A stretch of 64,000 nucleotides of DNA. It comes from Methylosinus sp. C49 (GTDB lineage: Bacteria > Pseudomonadota > Alphaproteobacteria > Rhizobiales > Beijerinckiaceae). Below the pieces are notes generated by a model that saw nothing but the letters and a program-made list of their open reading frames with translations, had not been told where the DNA came from and made no database searches. Below are positions 12,059 to 31,884 of the stretch, piece by piece. The position numbers and the translations under genes are program-made. The stretch is from the NCBI RefSeq assembly GCF_009936375.1, contig NZ_AP022335.1, forward strand, positions 1 through 64,000, given 5' to 3'. The stretch's first letter is position 1; the number at the start of each line of letters is the position of its first letter.

Positions 12059-12097
12059 CGAAACATGACGTGAGCTCGACATCGCGAGGCGGCGACG

Positions 12098-15000
12098 ATG
12101 AGCATTGGTTTCAGCGAACTGAAAGTCGGGGATCGAGGCCGAGTCATAGGCTTCGATCGAGGAAATGCGGCTCATCGACAGAAGCTGTTGTCGATGGGCC
12201 TCACTCCGGGCGCCGAATTCACGGTGGTCCGCGTCGCCCCTCTCGGCGATCCCGTCGAAATTCGCGTGCGCGGCGCAGATTTGAGCCTGCGCAGCGACGA
12301 AGCTTCGGCGCTGATGGTCGAGCGTATCGACGCGCCGGCGACGCTCGAGCCGGAGAACGCCGTCACGATCGCGATCGTCGGCAATCCGAACTGTGGCAAA
12401 ACGACGCTGTTCAACGGCCTGACCGGCGCCCATCAGCGCGTCGGGAACTGGGGCGGCGTCACTGTCGAGAAGAAGGTCGGCGCATTCGATTTCGCGGGCC
12501 GGAGCTATCGCGTCGTCGATCTGCCGGGAATCTATTCGCTGGACGCGCATGACGAAGCATCGTCCGTCGATGAGAGCATCGCGCGCGATTACATTCTCTC
12601 CGGCGAAGCGGATATCGTCATCAATATCATCGACGCGTCCAATCTCGAGCATGGACTCTATCTGACGACGCAACTGCTGGAAATGGCCGCGCCTGTGGCC
12701 GTCGTCCTCAATGTGATGGACGACCTCGACGAGCGCGAGGCGCGCATTGATGCGGAGGCGGTGCGGCGTCGCCTCGATCGTCCCGTCGCCGCGGTCGTCG
12801 TGACGCGTCGAAAGCAATTGGACGGTCTCGAGGCCGAGATCGAGCGATGGGTCCGTGAAAGGACGCCGTCGAGCTTCTCGCTGGACTATCCCCCGGCCAT
12901 CGAGAACGCGATTGCGGAATTGGCGCGCGAGATTGGCGCGACGCAATCGAGCGGTCTCGATCCGCGATGGCTGGCGCTTCGCTTGCTCGAGGGCGACGGC
13001 TTCGCCGCGAGCAAGGTCGCGCCGCAGATCAGAGAGACACAGGCGCGTCTCGTCGAAAAAATAGAGAGCGAGACGCAGAGCGATCCCGACACGCTCATCG
13101 CGGACGCTCGCTATCGTTTTGCGCATGGCCTCGCCGAGGAGGCGCTCGCCGCACGCCCGGCGACGCGCGTCACCGCCTCCGATCTCATCGACCGCCTCGC
13201 GTTGAATCGCTTTCTCGGAATTCCGATCTTTCTCGCCGTGATGTATTGCCTGTTCTGGTTCACCATCGCGCTCGGCCGGGCGTTCCGGCCATTCTTCGTG
13301 ATGATGTCGGAAACCTTCTTCGTCGAGGGGCCGCGCTATCTTCTCGGCGAGATCGGCAGCCCGAAATGGCTGACCGCGATACAGGCCGATGGGCTCGGCA
13401 ACGGCCTGCTGCAGGTCGTGACCTTCATTCCCATCATCGGCTTTCTCTATCTCTTCGTGTCCATGCTCGAAGAGTCCGGCTACATGTCGCGCGCCAATTT
13501 CGTCATGGACCGGCTGATGAAATCTCTCGGCCTGCCGGGCAACGCCTTCATTCCCATGGTCGTCGGCTTCGGATGCAATGTTCCGGCGATCATGGCGACG
13601 CGCACGATGGAGCGCCCGCGCGACCGCATCGTGGCGGTGCTGATGAGCCCGTTCATGAGCTGCGGCGGCCGTCTCGCCGTCTATACGGTGTTCGCCGCGG
13701 CCTTCTTTCCCTTGCATGGACAGCTCGTCGTCTTCGGCATTTACCTGCTCGGCATTCTCTTCGCGATGCTCACCTCTTTGCTGATGAAATTCAGCCTATT
13801 GCCGGAAGAGCGGTCGCTGCATGTGTTGACGCTGCCGTCCTATCATTGGCCCAAGCTGCGCAACGTGCTGATCAATTCCTGGATCCGGCTGAAGATGTTC
13901 CTCTTCAAGGTCGGCAGATACATCATACCGCTGGTGTTTCTGGTGAAGATTCTGAGCGCCTGGGGAACGGACGGCTCTTTCGATCGCAGGCCGATCGAGC
14001 AGTCGATGCTCGCGGCGGGCGGCCGCGCGATCACGCCGATCCTGGCGCCGATGGGCGTCACGCAGGACAATTGGCCGGCGACCGTCGCGCTGCTGACCGG
14101 CGTGCTGCACAAGGTCGTCATCGTGAGCACGCTCAGCTCGATCTATCTGGAGCAGGCCCAGCACGCGCCTTCTGTCTCGCCAGAGCGCCCCCAAGAGACG
14201 CCCGTAGCGGCGCGCGCCGCCGCCACAAATGTGAGTCCGCCGGAAGCGAAAGCGATCGAAGCGGAGACGCCGAGCCCCGAGAGCCGGAGCGCCGAGCCGC
14301 CGAAGCGCGAGGCCGAGCGGGAAGGCGCGCTCGACGAGGCGGAGGCGAAAGCGCGCATTACGGCCTTGTGGCGCGGCGCGGCCTCGGCGCAAGCCTTCGC
14401 CGCCGCGGTGGCGGAGGCTAAATGGAGTCTCGCACGCGGCGATCGCCGGGATCTCGTCCTGATCGATCCACAAGGCGACGCGCATCCGCTCGTCGGCAGC
14501 GTCGAAGGCGTCGGCGCGAAGGACATCCGCAAGCGCATGGCCCGCTTCGATTCCAAGGTTCTGCCGAGTGTCGACGTGGCCCAGGAGAAGGCGCGCACGG
14601 CCATTGCCGAAGAACGAGCGCGAGCCGCCGCCGAGCGCGCGGCCGCGGTTCCACCTGCGCCCGCTCATGCGGCCGAGCCGAAACACGAGGCGACGGAGCA
14701 TGCGCCGCCGGTGGCGACCGAGCAGGCGCATGAGCGCCACAGGCGGCAGAGCGCCGCTCCGTCCGGCGCGGGCGCGCATCAGACGTCGCCTGTGGCGGGG
14801 AAAGGTTTCGACCTGCGAGAAAGGCTGTATCGCGCAGCAATGACCGTTCCGCGAAATCTCGTCGCGCTGGTGGGAATCGGAGAGCCGGTGCGCCTGCATG
14901 GAGCCGCGGCCGGACTCGCCCCCGCTCTGGCGACGCGGTTCGACGGCAAAGTCGGAGCGCTCGCCTACCTTGTCCTGCTGCTGTGCTATCCGTGCATCGC

Positions 15001-15247
15001 GACCACGGCCGCAACCGCTCGCGAGACGAGCCGACGATGGACGGGCTTCATGGTGTTCTGGACGCTGAGCCTCGGCTATGGCGCCGCCGTCCTCTTCTAT
15101 CAAATCGGAACATTCGTATCGCATCCCTCTTCGTCCGCGGCATGGATCATCGGCGTCCTGGCCTATTTCGTCCTTCTGGGCGCCGGGAGCTTCTATGTCG
15201 GACCACATCCGAAGACCGTCCCCTCAAATGCGCATGTCGAAGTCTGA
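12098..15247 (+). CDS. feoB: FeoA-FeoB fusion, ferrous iron transporter with long insertion
   Basis: The protein has 1049 residues; usual FeoB is about 700-800. FeoA (SH3-like): residues 5-75. FeoB G-domain: G1 GNPNCGKT at 95-102, switch GVTVEKK, G3 DLPG, G4 NVMD. The membrane part includes the Gate motifs (GYMSRANFVMDRLMKSLGLPG; GFGCNVPAIMATRTMERPRDR; SPFMSCGGRLAVYTVFAAAFF). At about residues 685-900 a charged Ala/Glu/Pro-rich insertion interrupts the family pattern. Inside it is a short folded-looking piece (LVLIDPQGDAHPLVGSVEGVG; DIRKRMARFDSK). Membrane segments then resume (ALAYLVLLLCYPCIATTAAT). It imports Fe2+ across the inner membrane. It is coupled to feoC (TGATG overlap) and preceded by the two-part outer-membrane protein. 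Confidence 0.93.
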   Translation: MSIGFSELKVGDRGRVIGFDRGNAAHRQKLLSMGLTPGAEFTVVRVAPLGDPVEIRVRGADLSLRSDEASALMVERIDAPATLEPENAVTIAIVGNPNCGKTTLFNGLTGAHQRVGNWGGVTVEKKVGAFDFAGRSYRVVDLPGIYSLDAHDEASSVDESIARDYILSGEADIVINIIDASNLEHGLYLTTQLLEMAAPVAVVLNVMDDLDEREARIDAEAVRRRLDRPVAAVVVTRRKQLDGLEAEIERWVRERTPSSFSLDYPPAIENAIAELAREIGATQSSGLDPRWLALRLLEGDGFAASKVAPQIRETQARLVEKIESETQSDPDTLIADARYRFAHGLAEEALAARPATRVTASDLIDRLALNRFLGIPIFLAVMYCLFWFTIALGRAFRPFFVMMSETFFVEGPRYLLGEIGSPKWLTAIQADGLGNGLLQVVTFIPIIGFLYLFVSMLEESGYMSRANFVMDRLMKSLGLPGNAFIPMVVGFGCNVPAIMATRTMERPRDRIVAVLMSPFMSCGGRLAVYTVFAAAFFPLHGQLVVFGIYLLGILFAMLTSLLMKFSLLPEERSLHVLTLPSYHWPKLRNVLINSWIRLKMFLFKVGRYIIPLVFLVKILSAWGTDGSFDRRPIEQSMLAAGGRAITPILAPMGVTQDNWPATVALLTGVLHKVVIVSTLSSIYLEQAQHAPSVSPERPQETPVAARAAATNVSPPEAKAIEAETPSPESRSAEPPKREAEREGALDEAEAKARITALWRGAASAQAFAAAVAEAKWSLARGDRRDLVLIDPQGDAHPLVGSVEGVGAKDIRKRMARFDSKVLPSVDVAQEKARTAIAEERARAAAERAAAVPPAPAHAAEPKHEATEHAPPVATEQAHERHRRQSAAPSGAGAHQTSPVAGKGFDLRERLYRAAMTVPRNLVALVGIGEPVRLHGAAAGLAPALATRFDGKVGALAYLVLLLCYPCIATTAATARETSRRWTGFMVFWTLSLGYGAAVLFYQIGTFVSHPSSSAAWIIGVLAYFVLLGAGSFYVGPHPKTVPSNAHVEV

Positions 15248-20484: not shown

Positions 20485-20901
20485 ATGATGATGACGCACG
20501 AAATTTGCGTGGCGCCCCTATCGAACGTCCGCGTCCCGCGCGCGCCGCTTCCCTTGCGACGACAGAAGTTGCGATCGACCGCGCTGATCGCCTCGATGGC
20601 GCTGGCGATCCTCGCTTTCTTCTCCATCCAACCGGCCCTTGCGCAAATGCCGGATGTCGCTGCGGGACGGAAGCGGGCCGAAGTCTGCATGGCCTGCCAT
20701 GGCGAGAACGGCCGCGCCGTCGTGCCGGGCGTCCCGCATCTCGCCGGACAGGATCGCGACTATTTGGCGCAGGCGCTGAGGGACTACAGGCTCGCGCAAG
20801 AGCGGCATAATCCGACCATGACGGAAATGGCGAAGCCGCTCAGCGATGCGGACATCGACAATATCGCTGGATTCTTTCACGGCCTGCGGGCGGAAAAATG
20901 A
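20485..20901 (+). CDS. Periplasmic class I cytochrome c
   Basis: The protein has 138 residues from the first of three in-frame ATGs after CTGGAG. Signal segment: ALIASMALAILAFFSIQPALAQ. One haem site, CMACHG at about 68-73, and a distal Met in NPTMTEMAKPLSDADIDNIAGFF, typical of small cytochrome c553/c4-half proteins. It overlaps regB by 4 bases (ATGA). It probably feeds electrons to the bd-like complex encoded just upstream or acts as its third subunit. Confidence 0.88.
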   Translation: MMMTHEICVAPLSNVRVPRAPLPLRRQKLRSTALIASMALAILAFFSIQPALAQMPDVAAGRKRAEVCMACHGENGRAVVPGVPHLAGQDRDYLAQALRDYRLAQERHNPTMTEMAKPLSDADIDNIAGFFHGLRAEK

Positions 20902-22271
20902 CCTCTTCGATCAGGGTTGCGGCGCTGAGCCGGCGGGGCGTTCGATGGCCTCGGACAAAGGACTGGATAGCGCCGATTTCGATCGACGACTCGACGAACA
21001 CGAAGAATCTCCTGCTCCTCGTCGCTCTGCGCTGGGTGGCGATCTGCGGTCAGATCGCGTCGATCGCCGTCACCCATCTCTGGCTCGACATCCCTCTTCC
21101 GATTTTCGAAATGGGAGAGGTGATCGTCGTTCTCTTGTTTCTCAATCTCGTCACGCTCTATAGATGCTCGAACGACGCGCCGATCGCCGACACGGAGCTC
21201 TTCGTCCAATTGCTGCTCGATGTCGCGACGCTGACGATTCAGCTCTACCTCAGTGGCGGCGCGACAAATCCATTCATTTCGCTGTTCCTGCTGCAGGTCA
21301 TCCTCAGCGCTGTTCTTTTGCAGCCTCCGTTCACGTGGACGATCGTCGTCCTCACCGGCGGCTGCTTCATCTGGCTCACAACGCATTATCGGCAGATCGG
21401 CCTGGCCCACGCGCATGAGCACATGCGTGGCTCGTCGAAATTCTTCGACCTCCATATCCACGGCATGTTCGTCTGCTTCGCTCTGGCCGCCGTGCTCCTC
21501 GTATTTCTCGTGACCCGCATCAATCGCAATCTCCGCGACCAGGACGCGCGCCTGTCGCAAATGCGGCAACATGCCGTGGAGCAGGAACATATCGTGCGCA
21601 TGGGGCTGCTCGCCTCCGGCGCGGCGCATGAGCTGAGCACGCCGCTCGCGACGCTGACGGTGATCCTGCAAGACTGGGAGCGAATGCCTCTGCTGGCGAA
21701 CAACCCCGAGATCGGCGACGAGCTGCACGAGATGAAGACCGCGCTCGCCCGTTGCAAGGAGATCATGTCACATGTCCTGCTGAACGCGGGCGAAATTCGT
21801 GCGGAGCGCATGGAGCGGACGACGATCGTGAAATTTCTCGACGACGTGGCGCGCGAATGGCGAAGCCTTCGAACCCCTGCGCATTTCGCCTATTGCAAGC
21901 GCATCGACGTCGATAGCGCCATCGCTCCAGACGTCATCCTCAAACAAATGCTGTTCAATATACTGGACAATGCATTGGAAGCCTCTCCGAACTGGGTCGG
22001 GCTACAGGCGACGCGAGAAGGCGATGTCCTGGTGCTGACGGTGCGGGACAAAGGACCGGGCTTTCCTCCCGACATTCTCGACCGCTTCGGGAAACCCTAT
22101 CGATCGACCAAGAATCGGCCCGAGAGCGGCCTCGGGCTCTTTCTCGTCGTCAATGTCCTGCGCAAGCTCGGGGGCTCGATCGAGCCACGAAACTGCGCCA
22201 GCGGCGGCGCGATCGTCGAGTTGATGCTACCTATCGGCGCTATGTCGGTCGAGGAGCGCGATGCGTCCTGA
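20898..22271 (+). CDS. regB: RegB/PrrB-type redox sensor histidine kinase
   Basis: The protein has 457 residues and six N-terminal membrane helices. It carries the RegB ubiquinone-binding heptad GGATNPF (about 120-126). The H-box AAHELSTPLATLTVIL has the phosphorylated His at about 244, and a Cys in the conserved LARCKEIM helix (about 286) matches the redox-active RegB cysteine. The ATP-binding part shows N (MLFNILDNALEAS), G1 (RDKGPGFP) and G2 (SGLGLFLVVNVLRKLGG). RegB reads the quinone pool and disulfide state to control respiration and photosynthesis genes. It overlaps regA by 11 bases and is coupled to the cytochrome genes, so the operon carries its own redox regulator. Confidence 0.92.
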   Translation: MTSSIRVAALSRRGVRWPRTKDWIAPISIDDSTNTKNLLLLVALRWVAICGQIASIAVTHLWLDIPLPIFEMGEVIVVLLFLNLVTLYRCSNDAPIADTELFVQLLLDVATLTIQLYLSGGATNPFISLFLLQVILSAVLLQPPFTWTIVVLTGGCFIWLTTHYRQIGLAHAHEHMRGSSKFFDLHIHGMFVCFALAAVLLVFLVTRINRNLRDQDARLSQMRQHAVEQEHIVRMGLLASGAAHELSTPLATLTVILQDWERMPLLANNPEIGDELHEMKTALARCKEIMSHVLLNAGEIRAERMERTTIVKFLDDVAREWRSLRTPAHFAYCKRIDVDSAIAPDVILKQMLFNILDNALEASPNWVGLQATREGDVLVLTVRDKGPGFPPDILDRFGKPYRSTKNRPESGLGLFLVVNVLRKLGGSIEPRNCASGGAIVELMLPIGAMSVEERDAS

Positions 22272-22794
22272 TCCCCTTCTCGTGATCGTCGAGGACGATG
22301 CGTCCTTCGCGCGGGCGTTGCGGAAGTCCTTCGAGCGGCGAGGATATTGCGTCAGCGTTTGTGACGGCGCGGAAGCGCTCGACACGGCGCTCACGACCAT
22401 CAGCCCGTCCAATGCAGTCGTCGATCTCAAGCTCGCCGGTGGATCGGGACTGGAATGCGTGAAAATTCTGCATCGGCGCGACCCTTCGATGAAGATCGTC
22501 GTGCTGACCGGCTTCGCGAGCATCTCGACAGCTGTGGAAGCGATCAAGCTCGGCGCCTGTCATTATCTCGCAAAGCCATCGAGCGTCGACGACATAGAAA
22601 CGGCTTTCACCCGCCGCGAAGGTGACAGCAGCGTCGCATTGTCACAGCGTCAGAGCTCGATCAAAACCCTGGAATGGGAGCGGATCCACGAAACGCTCGC
22701 CGAAGTGAACTTCAACATTTCGGAAGCGGCGCGGCGGCTCGGCATGCATCGGCGAACCCTCGCTCGGAAGCTCGCCAAGCAGCGAATCGGCTGA
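22261..22794 (+). CDS. regA: RegA/PrrA-type response regulator
   Basis: The protein has 177 residues. Receiver domain: acidic pair VEDDASFARAL, phosphoacceptor Asp in AVVDLKLAGGSGLE (about 55), Thr/Lys in VVLTGFASISTAVEAIK and LAKPSS. A linker precedes a Fis-type helix-turn-helix (ISEAARRLGMHRRTLARKLA), almost the RegA signature. RegA activates many respiratory and C1/N2-fixation operons when phosphorylated by RegB. As the last gene of the bd-like operon it may also act on the promoter ahead of 17852. Confidence 0.92.
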   Translation: MRPDPLLVIVEDDASFARALRKSFERRGYCVSVCDGAEALDTALTTISPSNAVVDLKLAGGSGLECVKILHRRDPSMKIVVLTGFASISTAVEAIKLGACHYLAKPSSVDDIETAFTRREGDSSVALSQRQSSIKTLEWERIHETLAEVNFNISEAARRLGMHRRTLARKLAKQRIG

Positions 22795-22995
22795 TCGGCT
22801 GGCCGGTGCAGTCGATCTTCGCTGCGATCGAGGCGATCGCCGCCCATTGTGAGGCGTGATCGCCATGGTGCTCCTGCGCCATCCGAACCGCCCGTTCCCG
22901 AACCTCAGCTGAAAATCTGCTCGATGGCTTTTTCTTCGTATCATGGCTCCATCCAATCAAGAGTTGGAGCCTCCGGCAATCCCGGGGCGGTTCAG
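22795..22995 (-). mobile_element. IS3-family orfA remnant
   Basis: The minus strand encodes FSAEVRERAVRMAQEHHG and then SQWAAIASIAAKIDC, the N-terminal helix-turn-helix of IS3-type OrfA. It has lost its start and is cut after about 60 codons next to regA. The adjoining GAGTTGGAGCCTCCGG stretch (22960-22975) resembles the element end. No OrfB and no second terminus are present, so this is a dead fragment between regA and the mbn operon. Confidence 0.6.
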
Positions 22996-23076
22996 ACCGC
23001 GGGCCCGATTCGCGGCCTGACCCTTCGGCGCGGAATCGACGCCAGACCACAGGATGCGCCGACCTTCGCAGTCGTC

Positions 23077-23724
23077 TCAGTCGCCGATCCAACGGCGTAG
23101 CAGGCGCCGTCGGTCGCCGGCAAGCTCTCCGCGACCATGCAACATACGCCTGTTGTCGATGATCAACACGCTTCCCGGCCGTAACGCGATGGCGACGCCG
23201 TGTTCCCCGGGAAAGTCGCCGAGCGCCGCGAGCACACGGCTGGCAGCCGGCGAAAGCGACTCCTCGACAATCAGCCAGGGCGCATAATTGATGCGCCAAC
23301 CGCCATGTCGATCGCCTGAAAGAAGGGGCAGACTCCCGGCTTCATGCGCGCCCTCGATCGCCGGAAACCGCACCGCGACGCGATTTAAGGCGTTGATTTC
23401 CGCCGGCGTCGCGCCGTCGAAAATAGGCTTCGTGTCCTTGAGAAGCATTTCGCCGCCAATATCCTGCTGCACGAGGCATAGCCAAACGACGTAGCGGGCG
23501 AAGGGCGAGTCGGTATGATAGGCGAGAGGCGCCTCCCGTTTGAAATAACTCGTCGCTCCCGCCTCGACTCGAATTTCGCATTCGTGGATGATCGGCCCGA
23601 GCTTGTTGCAGATGTCGTCGTAATCCGCCGCGTCCACGCGATCGGGCGCGAAGAAATAACCGTGGTCGCGGATCTTTTCCCGGATCGCGTCGAGGGACGC
23701 CAGCGAAGCGGCCGCCGGAATCAT
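23077..23724 (-). CDS. mbnD: Fe(II)/2-oxoglutarate-type dioxygenase of the methanobactin operon (MbnD-like)
   Basis: The protein has 215 residues from ATG 23724, which overlaps the mbnF stop by 4 bases; the longer frame is inside mbnF. Facial triad candidates are visible: H70 and D72 in LAYHTDSPF, H196 in NRRMLHGRGE, with Arg residues near 205-210 for the co-substrate. The TauD/clavaminate-synthase-like order is kept, and ICNKLGPIIHECEI near the start matches the family. In some group II methanobactin operons a gene of this type is named mbnD. It may hydroxylate the peptide or a tailored intermediate; no product is proven. It is last in the operon. Confidence 0.72.
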   Translation of the reverse strand: MIPAAASLASLDAIREKIRDHGYFFAPDRVDAADYDDICNKLGPIIHECEIRVEAGATSYFKREAPLAYHTDSPFARYVVWLCLVQQDIGGEMLLKDTKPIFDGATPAEINALNRVAVRFPAIEGAHEAGSLPLLSGDRHGGWRINYAPWLIVEESLSPAASRVLAALGDFPGEHGVAIALRPGSVLIIDNRRMLHGRGELAGDRRRLLRRWIGD

Positions 23725-25373
23725 CGCCGATGCTCCGCGGCGAGCGCCTTTGGAGTCGCGCCGAGGGCGCCGACGGGGAGACAGCAAATGCGCGCCAGAA
23801 CATTTTCGAGGACGCGCGACGGGTCCTCGTCCTCGCTCGGCGAGCGCCAGGCGATATACCCGTCCGGCCGCGCCAATAATGCGCCGTCCGCGCCGAGCCC
23901 GACCTTATCGAGAAATGTTGCGGACGGGTCGTCGACATCGACGTCCAGGCGGAAACAGTCGAGCGGCGCGCCTCCCTCCCCCAAGCGTCGCGCGGCATCA
24001 ATCCACGCGCCGCCTCGTGGACCCGCGAACAGCACGAAGTCACGCCCGATGAGATCATGTGTGGAGACGCTAAGGCCATTTCGGCGCAGCTCGACATGCG
24101 GCAGGCGGGTACCGGGCGAGCCCGACGGCTGCAGCGGGTGTTCCGTCGCCGCGCCGTCGTCGGTCGCATCGGAGACGATGGCGGCGGAGCGATAGCGATA
24201 GCCGAGCGCGGCGCTCAGATAGTCCGCTTCATGCGCGCGCACTCTGATCTCGTCCCGATCGGGTTGCAGGCGTTCCACATAATTGGCGAGCTGGCGGGAC
24301 AGGGCGATATGGGCGACGGGAAGGCGCTCCGCTTGATAGGTGTCGAGAAGCGCCGGCCCTGCGTCGCCCTTCAGCACATAGGCGAGCTTCCAGGCGATAT
24401 CGGCGGCGTCCTGAAGCGCGGTCTGACCGCCGAGCCCGCCGACGGGTGGCATGAGGTGGGCGGCGTCTCCGGCGAGAAAGACGCGGCCCTGCGCCATGCG
24501 CGACGCGATCAGCGCCGATTTTCGCCAGAACAGAATATCGATCACTTTCACGTCGACGTCTCCAGCGCCGAGAGCGGCCCTGACGAGCGCCGCGCAGCGC
24601 GCCGCATCGAATTCGTCGGGCGACTCCGCCGCGGGATCGAAAGCGATGTTGAGCTGCCCACGATTGGGATCATCGCAGCTGACGAAGACTCCCGTGAACG
24701 CCGCATTGCGCAGATAGCAAAGCACGAAACCGGCGCCGGGAAGAATCGTCGCCAGATCGGCTTCGAAAAGAATGGACACGGAGTGCGAGATGACGCCGGG
24801 ACCCCGCATCTCGATCCCGAGTTGCTCCCGCGTCGCGCCATTCGCGCCGTCCGCCGCGATCATATAGTCGGCGCGCACCTCGATGTCGTCCTCGGCGGCC
24901 ACGTCGTGGAGACGCGCGGTGACGCCGTCCCGATCCTGAACGAATTGCGTGAGCATCGTCGAAAACCGCACGTCGGCGCCGAGCGCTCTCGCATGCTCGA
25001 GAAAAATGGGCTCGACCCGATCCTGCCCCGCCGTGCAGACCTGCGCCGGCGAAACATTGGGGCCGTCGAAATCGCTTTTGGCGATGAGCGTCCGGATTTT
25101 TGGTCCGGTGACCGTCGCCGCGATATAAGCGAGAACGTCGTTCGCCGCCGCGCGGGACACGCCGAAGAGATCTTTTTCCAGGCCCGGAACGACGCGTAGC
25201 AGTTCCATGCTGCGCCGATTGACGCCATGCGCCTTGGGATGGCGGGAGGCGGCCTCGTGGCGCTCCGCCACGAGGCAGGAGATTCCGCGCCACGCCAAGA
25301 GCATTGCCGCCGTCAGCCCCGCGTAGCCGCCTCCGCGAATGAGAACTTGCGTGCGAATGCGTTCGACGCTCAT
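23721..25373 (-). CDS. mbnF: FAD-dependent monooxygenase of the methanobactin operon (MbnF)
   Basis: The protein has 550 residues of the aromatic-hydroxylase (PHBH-like) flavoprotein family: dinucleotide motif GGGYAG at 14-19, DG motif AADGANGATRE, and GD motif RVFLAGDAAHLMPP with VGGLGGQTALQDAADIAWKL. A C-terminal thioredoxin-like domain follows (ISTHDLIGRDFVLFAGPRGG-type region). In group II producers such as Methylocystis SB2, MbnF is proposed to turn an oxazolone into a pyrazinedione ring (literature knowledge). It follows mbnM after a 64-base gap and overlaps mbnD. The genus-type genes mbnN (aminotransferase) and mbnS (sulfotransferase) are not in the window. Confidence 0.88.
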   Translation of the reverse strand: MSVERIRTQVLIRGGGYAGLTAAMLLAWRGISCLVAERHEAASRHPKAHGVNRRSMELLRVVPGLEKDLFGVSRAAANDVLAYIAATVTGPKIRTLIAKSDFDGPNVSPAQVCTAGQDRVEPIFLEHARALGADVRFSTMLTQFVQDRDGVTARLHDVAAEDDIEVRADYMIAADGANGATREQLGIEMRGPGVISHSVSILFEADLATILPGAGFVLCYLRNAAFTGVFVSCDDPNRGQLNIAFDPAAESPDEFDAARCAALVRAALGAGDVDVKVIDILFWRKSALIASRMAQGRVFLAGDAAHLMPPVGGLGGQTALQDAADIAWKLAYVLKGDAGPALLDTYQAERLPVAHIALSRQLANYVERLQPDRDEIRVRAHEADYLSAALGYRYRSAAIVSDATDDGAATEHPLQPSGSPGTRLPHVELRRNGLSVSTHDLIGRDFVLFAGPRGGAWIDAARRLGEGGAPLDCFRLDVDVDDPSATFLDKVGLGADGALLARPDGYIAWRSPSEDEDPSRVLENVLARICCLPVGALGATPKALAAEHRR

Positions 25374-25437
25374 TGCGTTTTCCTTTTCATCGTCGCGCAG
25401 TCAGCCGGCGCGACGTTGCGCGCCGCGGCCGGCTGCC

Positions 25438-26724
25438 TCAACATTGCAAAGCGGGTTGGGGCGTCGGCTCGCGTGGGTCCGAGAGGCGTCTCCAAAGAAC
25501 GGCCGCGCAAATCGCTTCCGGCGCGATCAAGGCGAGATAGGCGACCGCCGGCTCGTCGAGATGCAATCCGAGCGCGGTCAAAGGCAAGGCGACGAAACAG
25601 GCGACAAGGCCGTCGACCGTCGCGGCGTCGGCGAAGCGGCCGTCGGCATGCAAGGCCCCGCGCATGACGTTCGTCGCAAATCTGATGGGAAGCGACAAAG
25701 CGAGCGCGGCGACGAATGTCGACCACCAGCGTCCCTCCTGCTGGTATATGGCCTGTCCGATCCAACCGCTGCTCGACAGCAGGATTGTCCCCGCGGCGAC
25801 GGCGACGGGAATTCCCTGTCGCCACAAATGAACGATTTGCGACGCAATTTCCGCTCGCGGCCATTCCGAAAGACGCAAGGCGAGAAATCTAGTGAGCGCG
25901 GTGAAGGGCGTGAAAAGGAGCAGGACGAGAATTTGCCCGGCGGCGTAAGCGTCTGCGCGCGCCGTTTCGAAACGCCCGATCCACGGCGCGGCAAAAAGCG
26001 CGAGCGATGTCAGGACGAGAAGTTGAGGCGACAAAACTCTCGCCGCTTCCCATAGCGATTGCGCGAGAAACGACCGCGCGAAGGCCCAGGAGGGAAGCCG
26101 CGGAGCCGCGTCATGATCCCGCCGCGCCGCCGCGAACGTCACAGTCGCTCCGGCCGTCGCGGCGACGAAGCCCGCGATGAAACATCCCTCGAAGCCGAAA
26201 CCGAGCGGATAGACGAGCGTATAGGCGGCCGCCGCCTTGAGGACGATCTCGAAGGATTTCCAGCAAAGGGCGACGCGCCCGCGCTCGGTCGCGAACAGGA
26301 TGAACAGGCCGACGCCGGAGAGAACGCGGAATGGGATCGCGGCCAAATGCCAGCCGAGCGCGGATCGAGCGAGACGGACGGCCTCCGTCGTTCCACCGAT
26401 CAGGGTCAGCCCCGACGGATAGGTCAAGCAGCCGATCGCACCGGCGCCCCCGCCGACAACGAGCGCCACAACCCATAATTGCGCGACGATTCTCGACCTC
26501 CCGCAAGTGTCACGCTCCTTGGCGACGATGACGGAGGCGACGCCCCCCACCGCCGCGACGAGAACGGCGTCGAGGAGGGCGACGCGCGCGAGCAGGGCAT
26601 ATGCCGCCGGCGCGCCGGCGCCTAATCTCGCGATCATCGCCAAGTCGATCTGAAACGAAACCGGCGCGATGGACAGGGTCGCGAGCAAGGGACAAAATCC
26701 TCGCCAGAATCCTCTTCCGTTCAT
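25438..26724 (-). CDS. mbnM: MATE-family methanobactin exporter (MbnM)
   Basis: The protein has 428 residues from ATG 26724, overlapping the mbnC stop (ATGA); the longer open frame lies inside mbnC. About 12 membrane segments; the first holds ISIAPVSFQIDLAMIARLG-type MATE sequence (LATLSIAPVSFQIDLAMIA), and helix 7-8 regions show SLWEAARVLSPQLLVLTSLAL. It would export the mature peptide to the periplasm. Its position after mbnB and mbnC matches the mbnABCM order seen in Methylosinus and Methylocystis. Confidence 0.88.
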   Translation of the reverse strand: MNGRGFWRGFCPLLATLSIAPVSFQIDLAMIARLGAGAPAAYALLARVALLDAVLVAAVGGVASVIVAKERDTCGRSRIVAQLWVVALVVGGGAGAIGCLTYPSGLTLIGGTTEAVRLARSALGWHLAAIPFRVLSGVGLFILFATERGRVALCWKSFEIVLKAAAAYTLVYPLGFGFEGCFIAGFVAATAGATVTFAAARRDHDAAPRLPSWAFARSFLAQSLWEAARVLSPQLLVLTSLALFAAPWIGRFETARADAYAAGQILVLLLFTPFTALTRFLALRLSEWPRAEIASQIVHLWRQGIPVAVAAGTILLSSSGWIGQAIYQQEGRWWSTFVAALALSLPIRFATNVMRGALHADGRFADAATVDGLVACFVALPLTALGLHLDEPAVAYLALIAPEAICAAVLWRRLSDPREPTPQPALQC

Positions 26725-27293
26725 AGCGGGAGGCTCCGCCATCCTGGGAACTCCGCAATCTCCGAGCCGGGAATGGTGAAAAAGCCGAAAAACGCATCTC
26801 CGACGGCGATTGGCTGGTCCAGTTCCACCAATTCGACCTGACGGCCCGCGCTCAGGCTGCTGCATTTCCATCCAACGACAAAAGTCGGCGTGGCCGCGCA
26901 GCCGATAGCGAGGCCACGCGCCGCGCCGCGGTCTCTGATCGCCCAACGCGCGGCCGAGGCGCCCATGAGCGAAATCAATAGTTCGTCGCTGAGGCGGTCG
27001 CGGAAAACCGATTGCCGCAGCCATCGATACAGCCAGAGATAGTAAGACCAGGTGAAGCGAACGCCCTGCTCGCGCGCCCACTCCATGAAAGGCGCGAAAA
27101 TCGTCATGCCGTCGGGACCAGACAACTCCAGCAGTTCCGGACAGATATCGAAAGTCGAGTGCCAATAGGCGCGCAGACTGACGTCGATCCGGCCATAGGC
27201 GCGAGAATTGGGTGGATAGTCCAATATCCGCGAAGGAGATGTCAGAACGTCGAACAACTCACGATCAGTTCGCGCAAGCGATGGCTCGTTCAT
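26721..27293 (-). CDS. mbnC: MbnC, partner of the methanobactin oxazolone-forming enzyme
   Basis: The protein has 190 residues from ATG 27293, which lies inside the end of mbnB (29-base overlap). Typical MbnC features: an early DVLTSPSRILDYPP, RIDVSLRAYWHSTFDICPEL, FMEWAREQGVRFTWSYYLWLY and FRDRLSDELLISLMGASA. MbnC has no catalytic motif of its own. It forms a tight heterodimer with MbnB and helps bind the leader of MbnA (family knowledge). The overlap suggests coupled synthesis in a fixed ratio. Confidence 0.9.
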   Translation of the reverse strand: MNEPSLARTDRELFDVLTSPSRILDYPPNSRAYGRIDVSLRAYWHSTFDICPELLELSGPDGMTIFAPFMEWAREQGVRFTWSYYLWLYRWLRQSVFRDRLSDELLISLMGASAARWAIRDRGAARGLAIGCAATPTFVVGWKCSSLSAGRQVELVELDQPIAVGDAFFGFFTIPGSEIAEFPGWRSLPL

Positions 27294-28101
27294 CCTGCCG
27301 CTCCTCGGTCCCGCTGGTGAAAATTTCGCGCAAGCGCCGCAAATCGGCGATGATCGAGTCGTATTCGATATTGCCGTCGCGCTCGTAAGTGATCGTCGCG
27401 TCCGGCTTGTCGAAAATATGTCGGCGTCCGCGAAGGAAGGCGAGCGTATCTTCCGCCAACTCTTCCGCATGCGAGTCGTGAACAATATGCGGCGGGTTGA
27501 CCGCGCGGCTGTAGCCGGCGACGTGAAAGTGATTTGTGGACGCGATCACCTTGTCCCAGGCTTCGAGAGGCGCGCCGCAATTGAGATTGGCGCAGACCGA
27601 GTTCGATGCGTCGAAAAGCGCGCCTGCTCCCGTGTCCTGCATCAGCCGCTCGAAAAAGCGCGGCGCTTCCCATCCGCCTTCCATGATCGATGGATAATTC
27701 TCGATGAAAATGCGTTGGCCGAGCATTTCCTGCCAAAGATCGACCCGCACGCGCACGCGATCATAATCCCGCGCGTAATCCAGCTCTCCCAAATGAAAGA
27801 GATTCACTCCGTGATGAGTGAAGCTCGCGCCATGGTCGGAGACATAAAGCGGCTTCATGTCGCGAATGAACGGACGAAGGCGTGTTGCGAAATCCTGGAG
27901 CGCGTCGAGATCCTCGTCGATGAACTCCGAAAACATGATATGAAACCCTGTCGGGCAATCAAACGCTCGCGCCAGCTCCGCCGGCGGGACGCAAAGAAAA
28001 TTATCGATCAGCAATTCACAATAATCAATATGTCCTTCGGCGATCATGCGCCGAACCATTTCTGTCGTCTCCGTGAGTGTGAAATTGAATCCGATCCGCA
28101 T
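27265..28101 (-). CDS. mbnB: MbnB, DUF692 iron enzyme forming oxazolone/thioamide from Cys
   Basis: The protein has 278 residues from ATG 28101, 84 bases after mbnA. TIM-barrel DUF692 fold with metal-ligand candidates in the usual places: H54 (GFHIMFSEF), H90 (VSDHGASF), E134 (FIENYPS), D164 and N167 (LFDASNSV), H193 (NHFHVAGY), D209 and H211 (VHDSHAEEL), and a late Glu in TYERDGNIE. With MbnC it carries out the four-electron oxidation of Cys to an oxazolone with an adjacent thioamide, using O2 and a multi-iron centre (known for the family). The longer frame upstream covers mbnA in another frame and is rejected. Confidence 0.95.
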   Translation of the reverse strand: MRIGFNFTLTETTEMVRRMIAEGHIDYCELLIDNFLCVPPAELARAFDCPTGFHIMFSEFIDEDLDALQDFATRLRPFIRDMKPLYVSDHGASFTHHGVNLFHLGELDYARDYDRVRVRVDLWQEMLGQRIFIENYPSIMEGGWEAPRFFERLMQDTGAGALFDASNSVCANLNCGAPLEAWDKVIASTNHFHVAGYSRAVNPPHIVHDSHAEELAEDTLAFLRGRRHIFDKPDATITYERDGNIEYDSIIADLRRLREIFTSGTEERQDERAIACAN

Positions 28102-28141
28102 CGCATTCACCTGTGCCAGCGCATGAACAATGGAATGTATC

Positions 28142-28170
28142 GTGCGCCGCCCGAAGGGCGGACGGCGCAC
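28142..28170 (-). promoter_or_regulatory. Intercistronic hairpin between mbnA and mbnB
   Basis: The arms gtgcgccg (28142-28149) and cggcgcac (28163-28170) pair perfectly around an inner ccc/ggg stem. It lies 15 bases after the mbnA stop and 40 bases before mbnB, with no U-tract. Such a hairpin could partly end transcription or protect the mbnA message, so that precursor peptide outnumbers enzyme. Confidence 0.6.
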
Positions 28171-28184
28171 GACAGCTGCGATGC

Positions 28185-28268
28185 TTAGCCCCAGCAGGCG
28201 GTGCCGCAGTCGGCGCCGGTGCGGCCGTTGACGACGAGAGTGGTGCGCTTCACGATGTTGATAGCCAT
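28185..28268 (-). CDS. mbnA: MbnA, methanobactin precursor peptide (27 residues)
   Basis: A short gene read directly from the minus strand: ATG at 28268, stop TAA at 28185-28187, ribosome site AAGGAGA 5 bases before the ATG. The leader, MAINIVKRTTLVVNGRTGA, aligns residue for residue with the leader I recall for group II precursors (K-R-x-T-L-x-V-x-G-R). The predicted core is DCGTACWG, eight residues. The two Cys (21 and 25) keep the C-x3-C spacing of the SB2 type and would become the two oxazolone/thioamide (or pyrazinedione) copper ligands. Core residues W26 and G27 and the short C-terminus differ from the OB3b and SB2 cores that I know. It is followed immediately by mbnB and mbnC. Confidence 0.95.
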   Translation of the reverse strand: MAINIVKRTTLVVNGRTGADCGTACWG

Positions 28269-28286: not shown

Positions 28287-28705
28287 TCAGTCGATGTCGC
28301 CGCATCTGTCATTGGAGCGGCGGGTCGGTCGCCTGCGCGAGCCTTCCGAGAAACTGAGACGGTTCTGCATGGGAAAACCCGACACGGAATTCGAATTGTT
28401 TGCTTCTGGCGCGCGCCTCGATGCTGTCGTCGTCGACTTGCGTCCGAGCCGACCGAGTAAAAATTCGCGCGCCTTGACCAGATTGCGTTCGACGGTTCTC
28501 GTGGCGACGTCGCAGCGCGTCGCGACTTCCGATTGAATTCGTCGATGTGGTAAAGTAGGAAAATTCTTCGACAGATCGGCGGAAGCTCGGCAAGACATGC
28601 GAGCAACAAGCGCAGCTCGTTTGCGCTTTCGAGCGTGGCGTCCGCATCCGACGCATGGGCGTCCGACGCGAGAAAGAAATCGATTGCTGCGTCGTAGCCG
28701 GAATG
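28287..28705 (-). pseudogene. Frameshifted ECF sigma factor remnant upstream of mbnA
   Basis: One frame (28705 to about 28540) reads IHSGYDAAIDFFLASDAHA, then ELRLLLACLAELPPICRRIF and LLYHIDEF. After a one-base shift the next frame reads SEVATRCDVATRTVERNLVK and AREFLLGRLGRKS before stopping at 28287. Together these are the end of region 2 linker and region 4 of a FecI-type sigma factor (LPP-CRxIFLLxxIDEF; recognition helix VATRTVERNLVKA). Regions 1-2 are absent. It lies immediately upstream of mbnA in the same direction, where mbnI is usually found, so it is probably the decayed original mbn sigma gene. Confidence 0.72.
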
Positions 28706-29095: not shown

Positions 29096-31438
29096 TCAAT
29101 ATTCGACGCGCAGCGAGCCGATGACGGAGCGCGGCGCGCCGGGCGAGCCGGCGAAGCGGCCGGGGAATTGCGACGTGCCGTAGTAATAGGTGGAATTGGT
29201 GAGATTGTCGGCGTTGATCTGCGCCGTCACGAAGCTCCCCCCGAGCTGGAAGCGATAGGAGGCCATCGCCTTCAGATTCGTATAGGCGGGCGCGAGATAG
29301 GTGTTGGCGGGATCGACGAAGGCGTTGCCGACGCGCGATACGCCGATTGCTCCGCTCAAGCCGCGCAAATAACCGTCCGCCTCATATTTCACCCAGACAT
29401 TGCCCATGTTGTCAGGTACGGCGGGCAGACGCTTGCCGGCGATGGGCGCCTGCGTCGTCACATCGAAGGGGTCCGTCGCCGAAGGCGTCGAGCCCTTCGT
29501 CACATGCGTCGACATATGTGAGAAATTGGCGATGACGCTCCAATTGTCGTCGATGCGTCCGCTCACATCGAGCTCGACGCCTTCGCTGCGCGCATCGAGC
29601 AGATCGAACACATAATTGCGCAGCGCCGTCGGAGCGCTCGGCGTCGCCTGCGCGATATTATGCTTGTCGATGACGTAATAGGCCGCCGTGGCGATGAGGC
29701 GCTTATCGAAGAGCTCCGCCTTCACGCCGCCTTCCCACTGGATCGCGCGCTGTGGGCCGAGCGGCGTGTTGTTGCGCGTCACGCCATTGTTGACGCCGAA
29801 GGACTCCGTGTAATTGCCATAGAAAGCGAGCCAGGGCAGCGCTTGGACCGAGAGGCCGACGCGCGGGCTGAAGGCGTGATCGGCGACGCGCACGGCGAGA
29901 TAATTGGCGCGCATCAGCGCATTGTTCAGCACAGCGGAGGTCGAGGATTGGCCCGAGCTCACGGCACTGGCGAAATCATAGCGGCCGCCGAGCAGAAGAT
30001 GGACGCGATCGTCGAAGAAGGAGATCATGTCCTGCGCATAGAGACCCTGCCACTCCTGCGCGCGGATGAAGGCCGTGCCATTGGCTGGCGTGATGAAGCG
30101 CGAGATTCCGAGGCCGCTATAGGGCGCGATGCTCGCATTGTAATAATTGGGCGCATAGATGTTGAGCGATTGCGCCTGGTTCGACTGATAAATGTCGCCG
30201 ACCTGCGAATAGCTCATATGATCCGTGCCGATGAGCACGGAATGATGCAGGAATCCCGTGTCGAACCTGCCTTTCACATCGAGATTGCCGGTGATGGTGC
30301 GATAGCTGACCGGACCCCAATTGAGCGAGACATTGGATTGTCCGACCGGCCCTGAGGTCGGGCACCAGGCCGCAGGCGTGTTGTTGAGCTGGCCCGGCTG
30401 ATTGACGCAGACGAGGAAGAAGCTCGTCTGAATGGCGCGACTGTTGGAATAGAGAAAGCGATTGGTGACGCTCCAATCTTGGTCGAGATCATAGGTCCAA
30501 TCGAAGGCGACCTGCCGACGCATGTCGTGGCTGGGATTGTCGACGGTGATGCTGGGATCGCCGAGATAGCGGCTGATCGGAATCGGCGCGGCGTTGTAGC
30601 CGATGGCGGGAATATTCGGGTTGTTGTCGACGCCCTTCACATCGGTATATTCGGCGTCGACATTGAGCTTGAAATGCTCGCTCGGATGATAGGTGACGGT
30701 CGCCGAGCCGAACCAGCGATCATCGGTCACATAATCGATGAAAGACGGATTGTGATTGAATTCCGCCGTCACGCGATAGAGCCAGACTTTGTCCGGCGTG
30801 ATCGGCCCAGTGGCGTCGATCGTCGTGCGCGCGCCGCCGAAGGAGCTTCCCTGCTGCTGGACGGAATAATAGGGCGTCTCCAGCGGGCGCTTGATGATCG
30901 TGTCGACGAGGCCGCCGGGCTCGACGCGGCCGTAGAGCATGGCGACAGGACCTTTCACCACCTCGATCGATTGCACATTGGCGGTGCTCGGGCATTTTTG
31001 CGCGGGAAGCAGCAGGCCGTTGCGATAAGATTGCGAGAGCTGGAGATTGCCGGTCGGAAAGCCGCGGATGATGAGATTCTGGAACAATGTGCAGCCGGTC
31101 GGCATCAACGATGTGCTGCTCACCGCGCCGACGACGGCGTCATTGATGGAGATGGCCTGTTTGTCGTCCATCGTCTGGCGCGTCACCACTTGTACGGCGA
31201 TCGGCGTGTCGAGGATCGGCGCATCGAGCTTCGCCGAGGAGGCGCTCGTGGCGGCGTAGCCGGTGACGCGGTCGCCCGATCGCGCGCTGCGCGGATCATC
31301 GGCGCCGTCCGGGCGGCGCGTGGCTGCGCCGATGTCGATCGTCGGCAGCAGCTCCTGCGCCTGGGTGTGAGCGAGAAAAGCGAGGGATAGCGCCGTGCTG
31401 GCGAGGGCGCGGCGCGCCGCGCGTGAAACAATAAGCAT
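29096..31438 (-). CDS. TonB-dependent siderophore-type receptor
   Basis: The protein has 780 residues from ATG 31438, after GGAGA. A signal peptide (RRALASTALSLAFLAHTQAQ) is followed by a short TonB-box-like region (LLPTIDIGAATRR), the plug (DTPIAVQVVTRQTMDDKQAI; LIIRGFPTGNLQ; VEVVKGP-type IEVVKGPVAMLYG) and a barrel ending in Tyr (VIGSLRVEY). It has no STN domain, so it does not signal by itself. The barrel is of the FhuA/FpvA siderophore type; Cys pairs in loops (VCVNQPG...AAWC) may form disulfides. It follows a small CCxxC protein on the same strand, and a two-component system is divergently transcribed next to them. A copper-chelate or siderophore ligand is possible. Confidence 0.88.
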   Translation of the reverse strand: MLIVSRAARRALASTALSLAFLAHTQAQELLPTIDIGAATRRPDGADDPRSARSGDRVTGYAATSASSAKLDAPILDTPIAVQVVTRQTMDDKQAISINDAVVGAVSSTSLMPTGCTLFQNLIIRGFPTGNLQLSQSYRNGLLLPAQKCPSTANVQSIEVVKGPVAMLYGRVEPGGLVDTIIKRPLETPYYSVQQQGSSFGGARTTIDATGPITPDKVWLYRVTAEFNHNPSFIDYVTDDRWFGSATVTYHPSEHFKLNVDAEYTDVKGVDNNPNIPAIGYNAAPIPISRYLGDPSITVDNPSHDMRRQVAFDWTYDLDQDWSVTNRFLYSNSRAIQTSFFLVCVNQPGQLNNTPAAWCPTSGPVGQSNVSLNWGPVSYRTITGNLDVKGRFDTGFLHHSVLIGTDHMSYSQVGDIYQSNQAQSLNIYAPNYYNASIAPYSGLGISRFITPANGTAFIRAQEWQGLYAQDMISFFDDRVHLLLGGRYDFASAVSSGQSSTSAVLNNALMRANYLAVRVADHAFSPRVGLSVQALPWLAFYGNYTESFGVNNGVTRNNTPLGPQRAIQWEGGVKAELFDKRLIATAAYYVIDKHNIAQATPSAPTALRNYVFDLLDARSEGVELDVSGRIDDNWSVIANFSHMSTHVTKGSTPSATDPFDVTTQAPIAGKRLPAVPDNMGNVWVKYEADGYLRGLSGAIGVSRVGNAFVDPANTYLAPAYTNLKAMASYRFQLGGSFVTAQINADNLTNSTYYYGTSQFPGRFAGSPGAPRSVIGSLRVEY

Positions 31439-31488
31439 TGCGATGGTCTCCGGCCGCGTCTTGGAGAGACGCGCTTGAAGCGGACAGA

Positions 31489-31884
31489 TCATGCAGCTCG
31501 ACGGCTGCGCTCGATCGGCGGAGAGACGGGCGGCGGGCCGCGGGCCGAGGTGGAGCGGGCGCAGGCCAAAGGCGCGCGAGGCCCTCCGTCTTCGGCCGGG
31601 GCGGCGGAGCCGGCGGAGGCGAGCGGCTCGGGAAATGGCGCGCGACCGGTGAGAATGGCGAGCAGAATGGCCTGCTTGTCCGCGCGGTCGACCGAACAGA
31701 TCAGGCAGCAATCGGCCGGGTGCGGCCGCCCCGGCGCCGTGCGGCCCTGCCGCCGGCATTCGCCCGCGACCGCGCCGACCCGTTCCATCCCGGCCGCATC
31801 GGCGGCTGCGGCGTCGCGGCCGAAGCCCACAGCCAGGCCCTGCAGGACGAGCAGAAGCGCGAAAACCCGAACCAGACGCCGCAA
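31489..31884 (-). CDS. Small exported CCxxC protein (DUF2946-like), upstream of TonB receptor
   Basis: The protein has 131 residues if it starts at TTG 31884, 8 bases after GAGGA; the in-frame region above has no better start. The N-terminal hydrophobic segment RVFALLLVLQGLAVGFG is a signal or anchor. The periplasmic part has the cluster ADCCLICSVDRADKQAILLA, matching the DUF2946-type CCxxC pattern. The tail is rich in Pro and Ala. It ends 50 bases before the receptor start, so the two are likely cotranscribed. Confidence 0.6.
   Translation of the reverse strand: MRRLVRVFALLLVLQGLAVGFGRDAAAADAAGMERVGAVAGECRRQGRTAPGRPHPADCCLICSVDRADKQAILLAILTGRAPFPEPLASAGSAAPAEDGGPRAPLACARSTSARGPPPVSPPIERSRRAA

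Follow-up and report, generated by a model that had tools for sequence, protein, structure and literature searches.

Described methanobactin systems

Methanobactin operons whose precursor carries tryptophan directly after the second cysteine are presented, in passages of PMC3621798 (2013), as a subfamily of Group II that occurs in Methylosinus sp. LW3, in Methylocystis parvus OBBP and in a bioreactor metagenome. The same passages give LW3 and OBBP two mbnA genes each, place the small second LW3 operon amid transposon elements with no TBDT nearby, and locate the LW3 MbnP/MbnH pair at a distance from the operon, beside homologues of MbnT, MbnI and MbnR. Strains predicted to produce both forms are listed in an excerpt of PMC8262016, and mbnN is stated to be lacking in both OBBP operons in an excerpt of PMC8788703. 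With regard to the product, a passage of PMC10167746 links MbnF to the imidazolone or pyrazinedione ring, and the methanobactin of Methylosinus sporium NR3K is given pyrazinediol and oxazolone rings and a disulfide in a passage of PMC5947558 that mentions no sulfate. As far as these excerpts go, then, Cys-Trp precursors, two-operon strains and a pyrazinediol ring that is unsulfated as reported are already known. MbnD figures among the enzymes suggested to be important for methanobactin biosynthesis in part of PMC8888699 (2022), and is named among the biosynthesis proteins, citing Dassama 2017, in part of PMC12997803; because these passages do not define the protein, the gene name mbnD is used here as in the sequence-only reading of this DNA that preceded our analysis. 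The word dioxygenase is absent from the main text of PMC3621798, and literature searches returned no report of MbnD activity and no paper on GTACWG with methanobactin.

A Cys-Trp-type operon in Methylosinus sp. C49

The genome of Methylosinus sp. C49 comprises 4.70 Mb in 5 contigs (completeness 100), and the window analysed here is the initial 64 kb (64,000 nucleotides) of contig C4, which has 178,244 bases and which we guess to be a plasmid. Between positions 23077 and 28268, all on the minus strand, lie mbnA-B-C-M-F and a short TauD-type dioxygenase gene, mbnD (Table 1). Six genes in one direction in the order mbnABCMFD had been proposed from the letters alone, and profile searches bear this out, through NCBIfam for five of them and PF02668 for mbnD. 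Since five of the six proteins (MbnA, MbnB, MbnC, MbnM and MbnF) score above the curated NCBIfam thresholds, the arrangement is not a product of chance. The overlaps claimed at the same time were exact when the coordinates were rechecked, with 29 bases shared by mbnB and mbnC (27265-27293), 4 by mbnC and mbnM (26721-26724) and 4 by mbnF and mbnD (23721-23724); mbnM and mbnF are separated by 64 bases.

Table 1. Positions of the methanobactin genes and flanking features, numbered from the first base of the window
Feature	Position	Strand	Description
mbnD	23077-23724	-	215-aa TauD-type Fe(II)/2-oxoglutarate dioxygenase; PF02668 52.9 bits (cut-off 27)
mbnF	23721-25373	-	FAD monooxygenase; NF045577 912.5 bits (cut-off 800)
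mbnM	25438-26724	-	MATE exporter; NF045578 481 bits (cut-off 285)
mbnC	26721-27293	-	MbnB partner; TIGR04160 264.1 bits (cut-off 185)
mbnB	27265-28101	-	MNIO-type maturase; TIGR04159 440.6 bits (cut-off 325), scanned stretch 27286-28101
RNA hairpin, mbnA-mbnB gap	28102-28184	-	-39.9 kcal/mol, z -3.26
mbnA	28185-28268	-	27-aa precursor MAINIVKRTTLVVNGRTGADCGTACWG; TIGR04071 53.1 bits (cut-off 24), PF25751 52.9 bits (cut-off 27)
ECF sigma factor remnant (probable)	~28422-28648	-	tblastn pieces, C-terminal part, two frames
mbnT-like TonB-dependent receptor	29096-31759	-	open frame with probable start at 31438; has plug and barrel
IS3-like remnant	22803-22999		adjoins 3' end of mbnD; 75-78% DNA identity to sites in plasmid records

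The core of MbnA ends in DCGTACWG, with Trp directly after the second Cys and without the CASTCA motif, as the definition of the Group II Cys-Trp subfamily in PMC3621798 has it. MbnA stands with MbnB and MbnC over their curated cut-offs, as expected of a biosynthesis operon, and is accompanied by the exporter MbnM (481 bits) and by a TonB receptor that resembles the ones at mbn loci; the alternative of an operon without an export or uptake gene was rejected, both mbnM and an mbnT-like gene being present. The window operon is a real second methanobactin operon and, going by its precursor, one of the already described Cys-Trp subfamily. The hairpin in the gap between mbnA and mbnB, which 2 of 200 shuffles matched or bettered in folding and which shows no T-run, is a possible attenuator.

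Comparison was made with 15 other mbn loci, eight of them retrieved with MbnB (L007-L014, of which six are titled Methylocystis and two are MAGs titled Methylocystaceae and Alphaproteobacteria) and seven from the genus (L064-L069 and the chromosomal operon of the same genome, L048). MbnC exceeds its cut-off in seven of ten genomes of the genus, this one included, and this genome is the only one of the ten with MbnD; it is also the only one above the cut-off of the MbnB model among 119 genomes of the family. The comparison of operon order that had been suggested for Methylosinus and Methylocystis finds mbnA-B-C-M-F recurring, with mbnF in 12 of the 15 loci, but mbnD in none, bearing in mind that L066 spans just 117 bases past mbnF and L012 926. 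A Cys-Trp MbnA is likewise found in 0/15, so that the two features coincide in the window and in none of the other mbn loci; an Asp before the first Cys was rejected as a residue tracking mbnD, as L007 and L013 have the Asp and no mbnD. The Methylocystis operons (L007-L014; M. rosea SV97, SB2) share the mbnA-B-C-M-F order of the window but have no MbnD in the DNA examined, possess CASTC-type or DCxxxC cores without Cys-Trp, and are reported in part of PMC3621798 to include a sulfotransferase, for which the window genome has no counterpart. An unrooted MbnB-C-M tree, which sampled Methylocystis-type and genus loci and included no named member of the Cys-Trp subfamily, sets the window between these two sets, on the genus side with support 1.0 against the Methylocystis-type loci, and outside L066 and the remaining genus loci with support 0.81; judged by its precursor, the operon would belong to the Cys-Trp subfamily. 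In one genus relative an in-frame stop lies inside mbnB (L068 ~11219-12112, G123), either a real loss or a sequencing error of the draft assembly.

A second operon and the accessory genes

A profile search detected a second MbnB (433.5 bits) and MbnC (255.5 bits) on the 3.9-Mb contig C1, in an operon of the order mbnI-R-T-P-A-B-C-M-F that encodes a sigma factor, FecR, a receptor with STN, MbnP (273.5 bits), the precursor MAIKIAKKEVLPVVGRLGAMCSSCPMCGPLCP (55.8 bits), MbnM (470.7 bits) and MbnF (947.2 bits). This chromosomal operon is Group I-like. It and its relative L065 have mbnA-B-C-M-F in common with the window operon, and differ from it in the mbnI-R-T-P genes upstream, in a four-Cys core, in the lack of MbnD and in an MbnB that is 58% identical to that of the window. 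For LW3, Park reportedly described in 2021 a product whose backbone has 13 residues and which contains a pyrazinedione ring; the chromosomal core MCSSCPMCGPLCP would be consistent with such a product.

A separate I-R-T-P-H cluster lies at 3.506-3.513 Mb of C1, with MbnP at 282.6 bits and MbnH at 483.6 bits (cut-off 362.85), and searches of the C49 genome placed the MbnP and MbnH matches on C1 only, the window being on C4. The sequence-only reading had listed mbnN, mbnS, mbnP and mbnH as absent from the window and advised a search of the genome; that search upholds the absence of mbnS and of a close mbnN throughout the genome but not that of mbnP and mbnH. As the latter two are encoded elsewhere, their lack in the window is uninformative about the cell, and the idea of a producer missing both was rejected. 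The sulfotransferase MbnS (PF00685), the mark of the sulfated Methylocystis type, has 0 matches in the whole genome. For the aminotransferase MbnN, that of the transaminated OB3b type, the L069 protein as query found no close relative in the genome and three distant matches, all on C1, the best at 32% and 87.6 bits against 50-51% among the aminotransferases of L069, L064 and L067, which are called MbnN by position and score HisC-like. Given the empty PF00685 search and the absence of any near relative of mbnN, neither sulfation nor N-terminal transamination is expected. The earlier prediction of a product without sulfate therefore stands, given 0 PF00685 matches, whereas the novelty that it saw in this chemistry against the OB3b and SB2 products does not hold for the ring, a pyrazinediol-type first ring without reported sulfate being already on record for M. 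sporium NR3K in the passage of PMC5947558. The precursor type, the two mbnA genes and the MbnP/MbnH pair away from the operon all match LW3 as described in passages of PMC3621798; the second operon described there has no TBDT nearby, unlike that of the window with its neighbouring mbnT-like receptor.

The flanks of the operon

The mbnT-like receptor and the sigma remnant upstream of mbnA had both been omitted from the first description. Aligned with seven receptors from loci of the genus, it is 43-48% identical across 756-782 aa, the L069 receptor giving 48% across 756 aa; the MbnA of L069 is identical to the sequence that PMC3621798 prints for Methylosinus trichosporium OB3b. Two receptors encoded by the C49 genome itself (L047 and L070) give 44-45% identity. 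Two other window receptors, used as controls with the same three queries, gave 23-31%, one of them at 25% across 849-861 aa. The mbnT-like receptor shows no resemblance to the receptor beside L066 (20% across 296 aa) or to those in L007 and L009. The L047 and L070 receptors carry STN, whereas Pfam gave no STN match in that of the window, which may therefore not require a sigma/anti-sigma pair. With three MbnT-like receptors and two operons seen in one cell, the question of why one methanotroph makes two copper peptides becomes testable.

Between mbnA and the receptor there is probably a broken ECF sigma factor. The matches are short, the best tblastn piece having 50% identity across 36 aa (E 1.4e-7, target of 1.1 kb), and Pfam gave none in the one frame scanned, so that the assignment is probable rather than proven. 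In Methylocystis rosea L009 the sigma factor and mbnA occupy one open frame, as in PMC3621798, in place of the probable remnant beside mbnA seen here. On the other side of the operon, three of the five best plasmid-record matches to the IS3-like remnant are annotated as IS3 family transposase, and Pfam gave no match in the overlapping frame. Two mbn operons of the genus have transposase OrfA-like stretches in their neighbourhood, alike by eye, at 22712-23299 of the window and at 7886-8149 of L067.

The probable broken sigma factor upstream, the IS3-like remnant downstream and the second complete operon in the genome together raise the alternative that the window operon, silent or in decay, is a remnant carried by a mobile replicon and that the intact Group I-like operon of C1 carries out the copper work. 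We consider this unlikely, as the six genes and the receptor retain open frames and intact family matches, the catalytic residues of MbnD are kept, and a receptor without an STN match may need no sigma/anti-sigma pair.

MbnD and its relatives

MbnD stays far short of every NCBIfam cut-off, scoring at best 28.6 bits where 400 are required. His70, Asp72, His196 and Arg207 are invariant in an alignment of four short sequences; MbnD thus keeps the HxD...H motif and the Arg of TauD-type dioxygenases, which we take to be the iron ligands and the 2-oxoglutarate residue, respectively. Structure prediction of the protein alone reached a mean pLDDT of 33.7, too poor for a fold, and the solved structures include only distant enzymes, such as TmpA (E 1.2e-4). 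MbnD is rare in the genomes searched, with matches in 3 of 396 further genomes from the order (E <= 1e-6) and in 7 of 384 further ones from the class (E <= 1e-5), samples that share genomes; six of the seven lie in open frames of at least 377 aa. Plasmid records, from which near records may have been left out of the search, gave no match at E 1e-4.

The nearest relatives are a pair from one genus (E 1.9e-21 and 4.0e-21, 28-29% identity), which therefore count as one event only. Both belong to a cluster (L076 5119-15246; L077 1051-11914) in which, as in the window, a TauD-type protein is found with an MNIO enzyme and Cys-Trp precursors, and which differs from the window in its radical SAM enzyme, its ABC transporter and its precursors of 100-120 aa with terminal WRNCW (NCW) repeats, one in L076 and three in L077. 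A GAF protein and a cyclase-domain protein are also encoded there. The MNIO enzymes are closer to HvfB/BufB than to MbnB, and that of L076, the copy scanned, scores 205.9 bits with PF05114. A literature search for WRNCW gave no paper on such a cluster and one unrelated imaging paper; passages of PMC12636437 and PMC13060819 describe MNIO enzymes and HExxH-type 2-oxoglutarate oxygenases in one cluster. The third-nearest relative, L089 (E 1e-14, 29%), lies next to a GRDP-like gene, and a Cys-Trp precursor was not seen there; the third match in the order, L090 (E 5e-8, 409-aa frame), has by eye no MNIO/radical-SAM-type cluster. Because the nearest relatives of MbnD sit with an MNIO enzyme and Asn-Cys-Trp precursors, this thin evidence suggests that MbnD oxidises a peptide near Cys-Trp; the Cys-Trp common to the window and to L076 and L077 is a lead rather than a test.

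A proposed pathway

The reading that we favour, with moderate confidence, is that of a second, Cys-Trp-type operon in which MbnBC, MbnF, MbnM and the receptor act as in their families and MbnD is a peptide-directed oxygenase working near Cys-Trp. Going by these families, MbnBC would convert each X-Cys unit of the core (Asp-Cys and Ala-Cys) to a heterocycle and thioamide, MbnF would turn the first ring into one of the pyrazinedione/imidazolone type, MbnM would export the product and the adjacent TonB receptor would re-import the copper complex. MbnD would be an extra Fe(II)/2-oxoglutarate oxygenase directed at the peptide, probably hydroxylating a side chain of the core, most likely at or next to Cys-Trp, an assignment of substrate that is speculative; the product would carry neither sulfate nor an N-terminal transamination. 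The translational coupling of mbnD to mbnF through their 4-base overlap counts for this pathway. Against it count the coincidence of Cys-Trp and mbnD in just one mbn locus, the L089 relative with no Cys-Trp precursor seen, the low NCBIfam scores and pLDDT of MbnD, the short DNA past mbnF in L066 and L012, and the sigma and IS3-like remnants, which would suit a silent operon too.

Rather than modifying a finished peptide, MbnD might be required for finishing the second heterocycle when the second Cys has a Trp after it. According to a passage of PMC3621798, precursors of the Cys-Trp kind are without the C(G/A/S) motif tied to cyclisation and thioamide formation, and mbnD accompanies a Cys-Trp precursor here and in none of the 15 other loci. 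This is a single locus only, and one MbnBC is active on MbnAs of five groups according to part of PMC8888699, where a Cys-Trp MbnA is not named; we regard such a role as quite improbable. That MbnD is a hitchhiking small-molecule dioxygenase unrelated to the peptide, as the mostly small-molecule substrates of TauD proteins and its distant matches to enzymes such as TmpA might suggest, is very improbable in view of the 4-base overlap with mbnF and of the location of its nearest relatives in a different MNIO peptide cluster.

Returning to MbnD as a peptide-directed oxygenase of a Cys-Trp-type operon, a broader and rather doubtful extension is that it represents a small family of 2-oxoglutarate oxygenases acting at Cys-Trp beside MNIO enzymes, giving here an unsulfated methanobactin with an oxidised Cys-Trp and acting likewise, through its relative, on the WRNCW repeats of an MNIO/radical-SAM peptide cluster from a different family within the order. 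The window operon, which combines a single dioxygenase with a Cys-Trp precursor in a genome without a sulfotransferase, is a clean system for assigning MbnD.

Two further gene sets of the window deserve mention. A sensor kinase similar to ActS/RegB and a regulator similar to ActR/RegA (20898-22794), with scores of 213 of 350 and 156 of 250 bits that are below cut-off, end beside the operon. At 12098-15247, FeoA and FeoB domains are joined in a single open frame of 1049 aa, and iron uptake genes thus share the contig with the operon.
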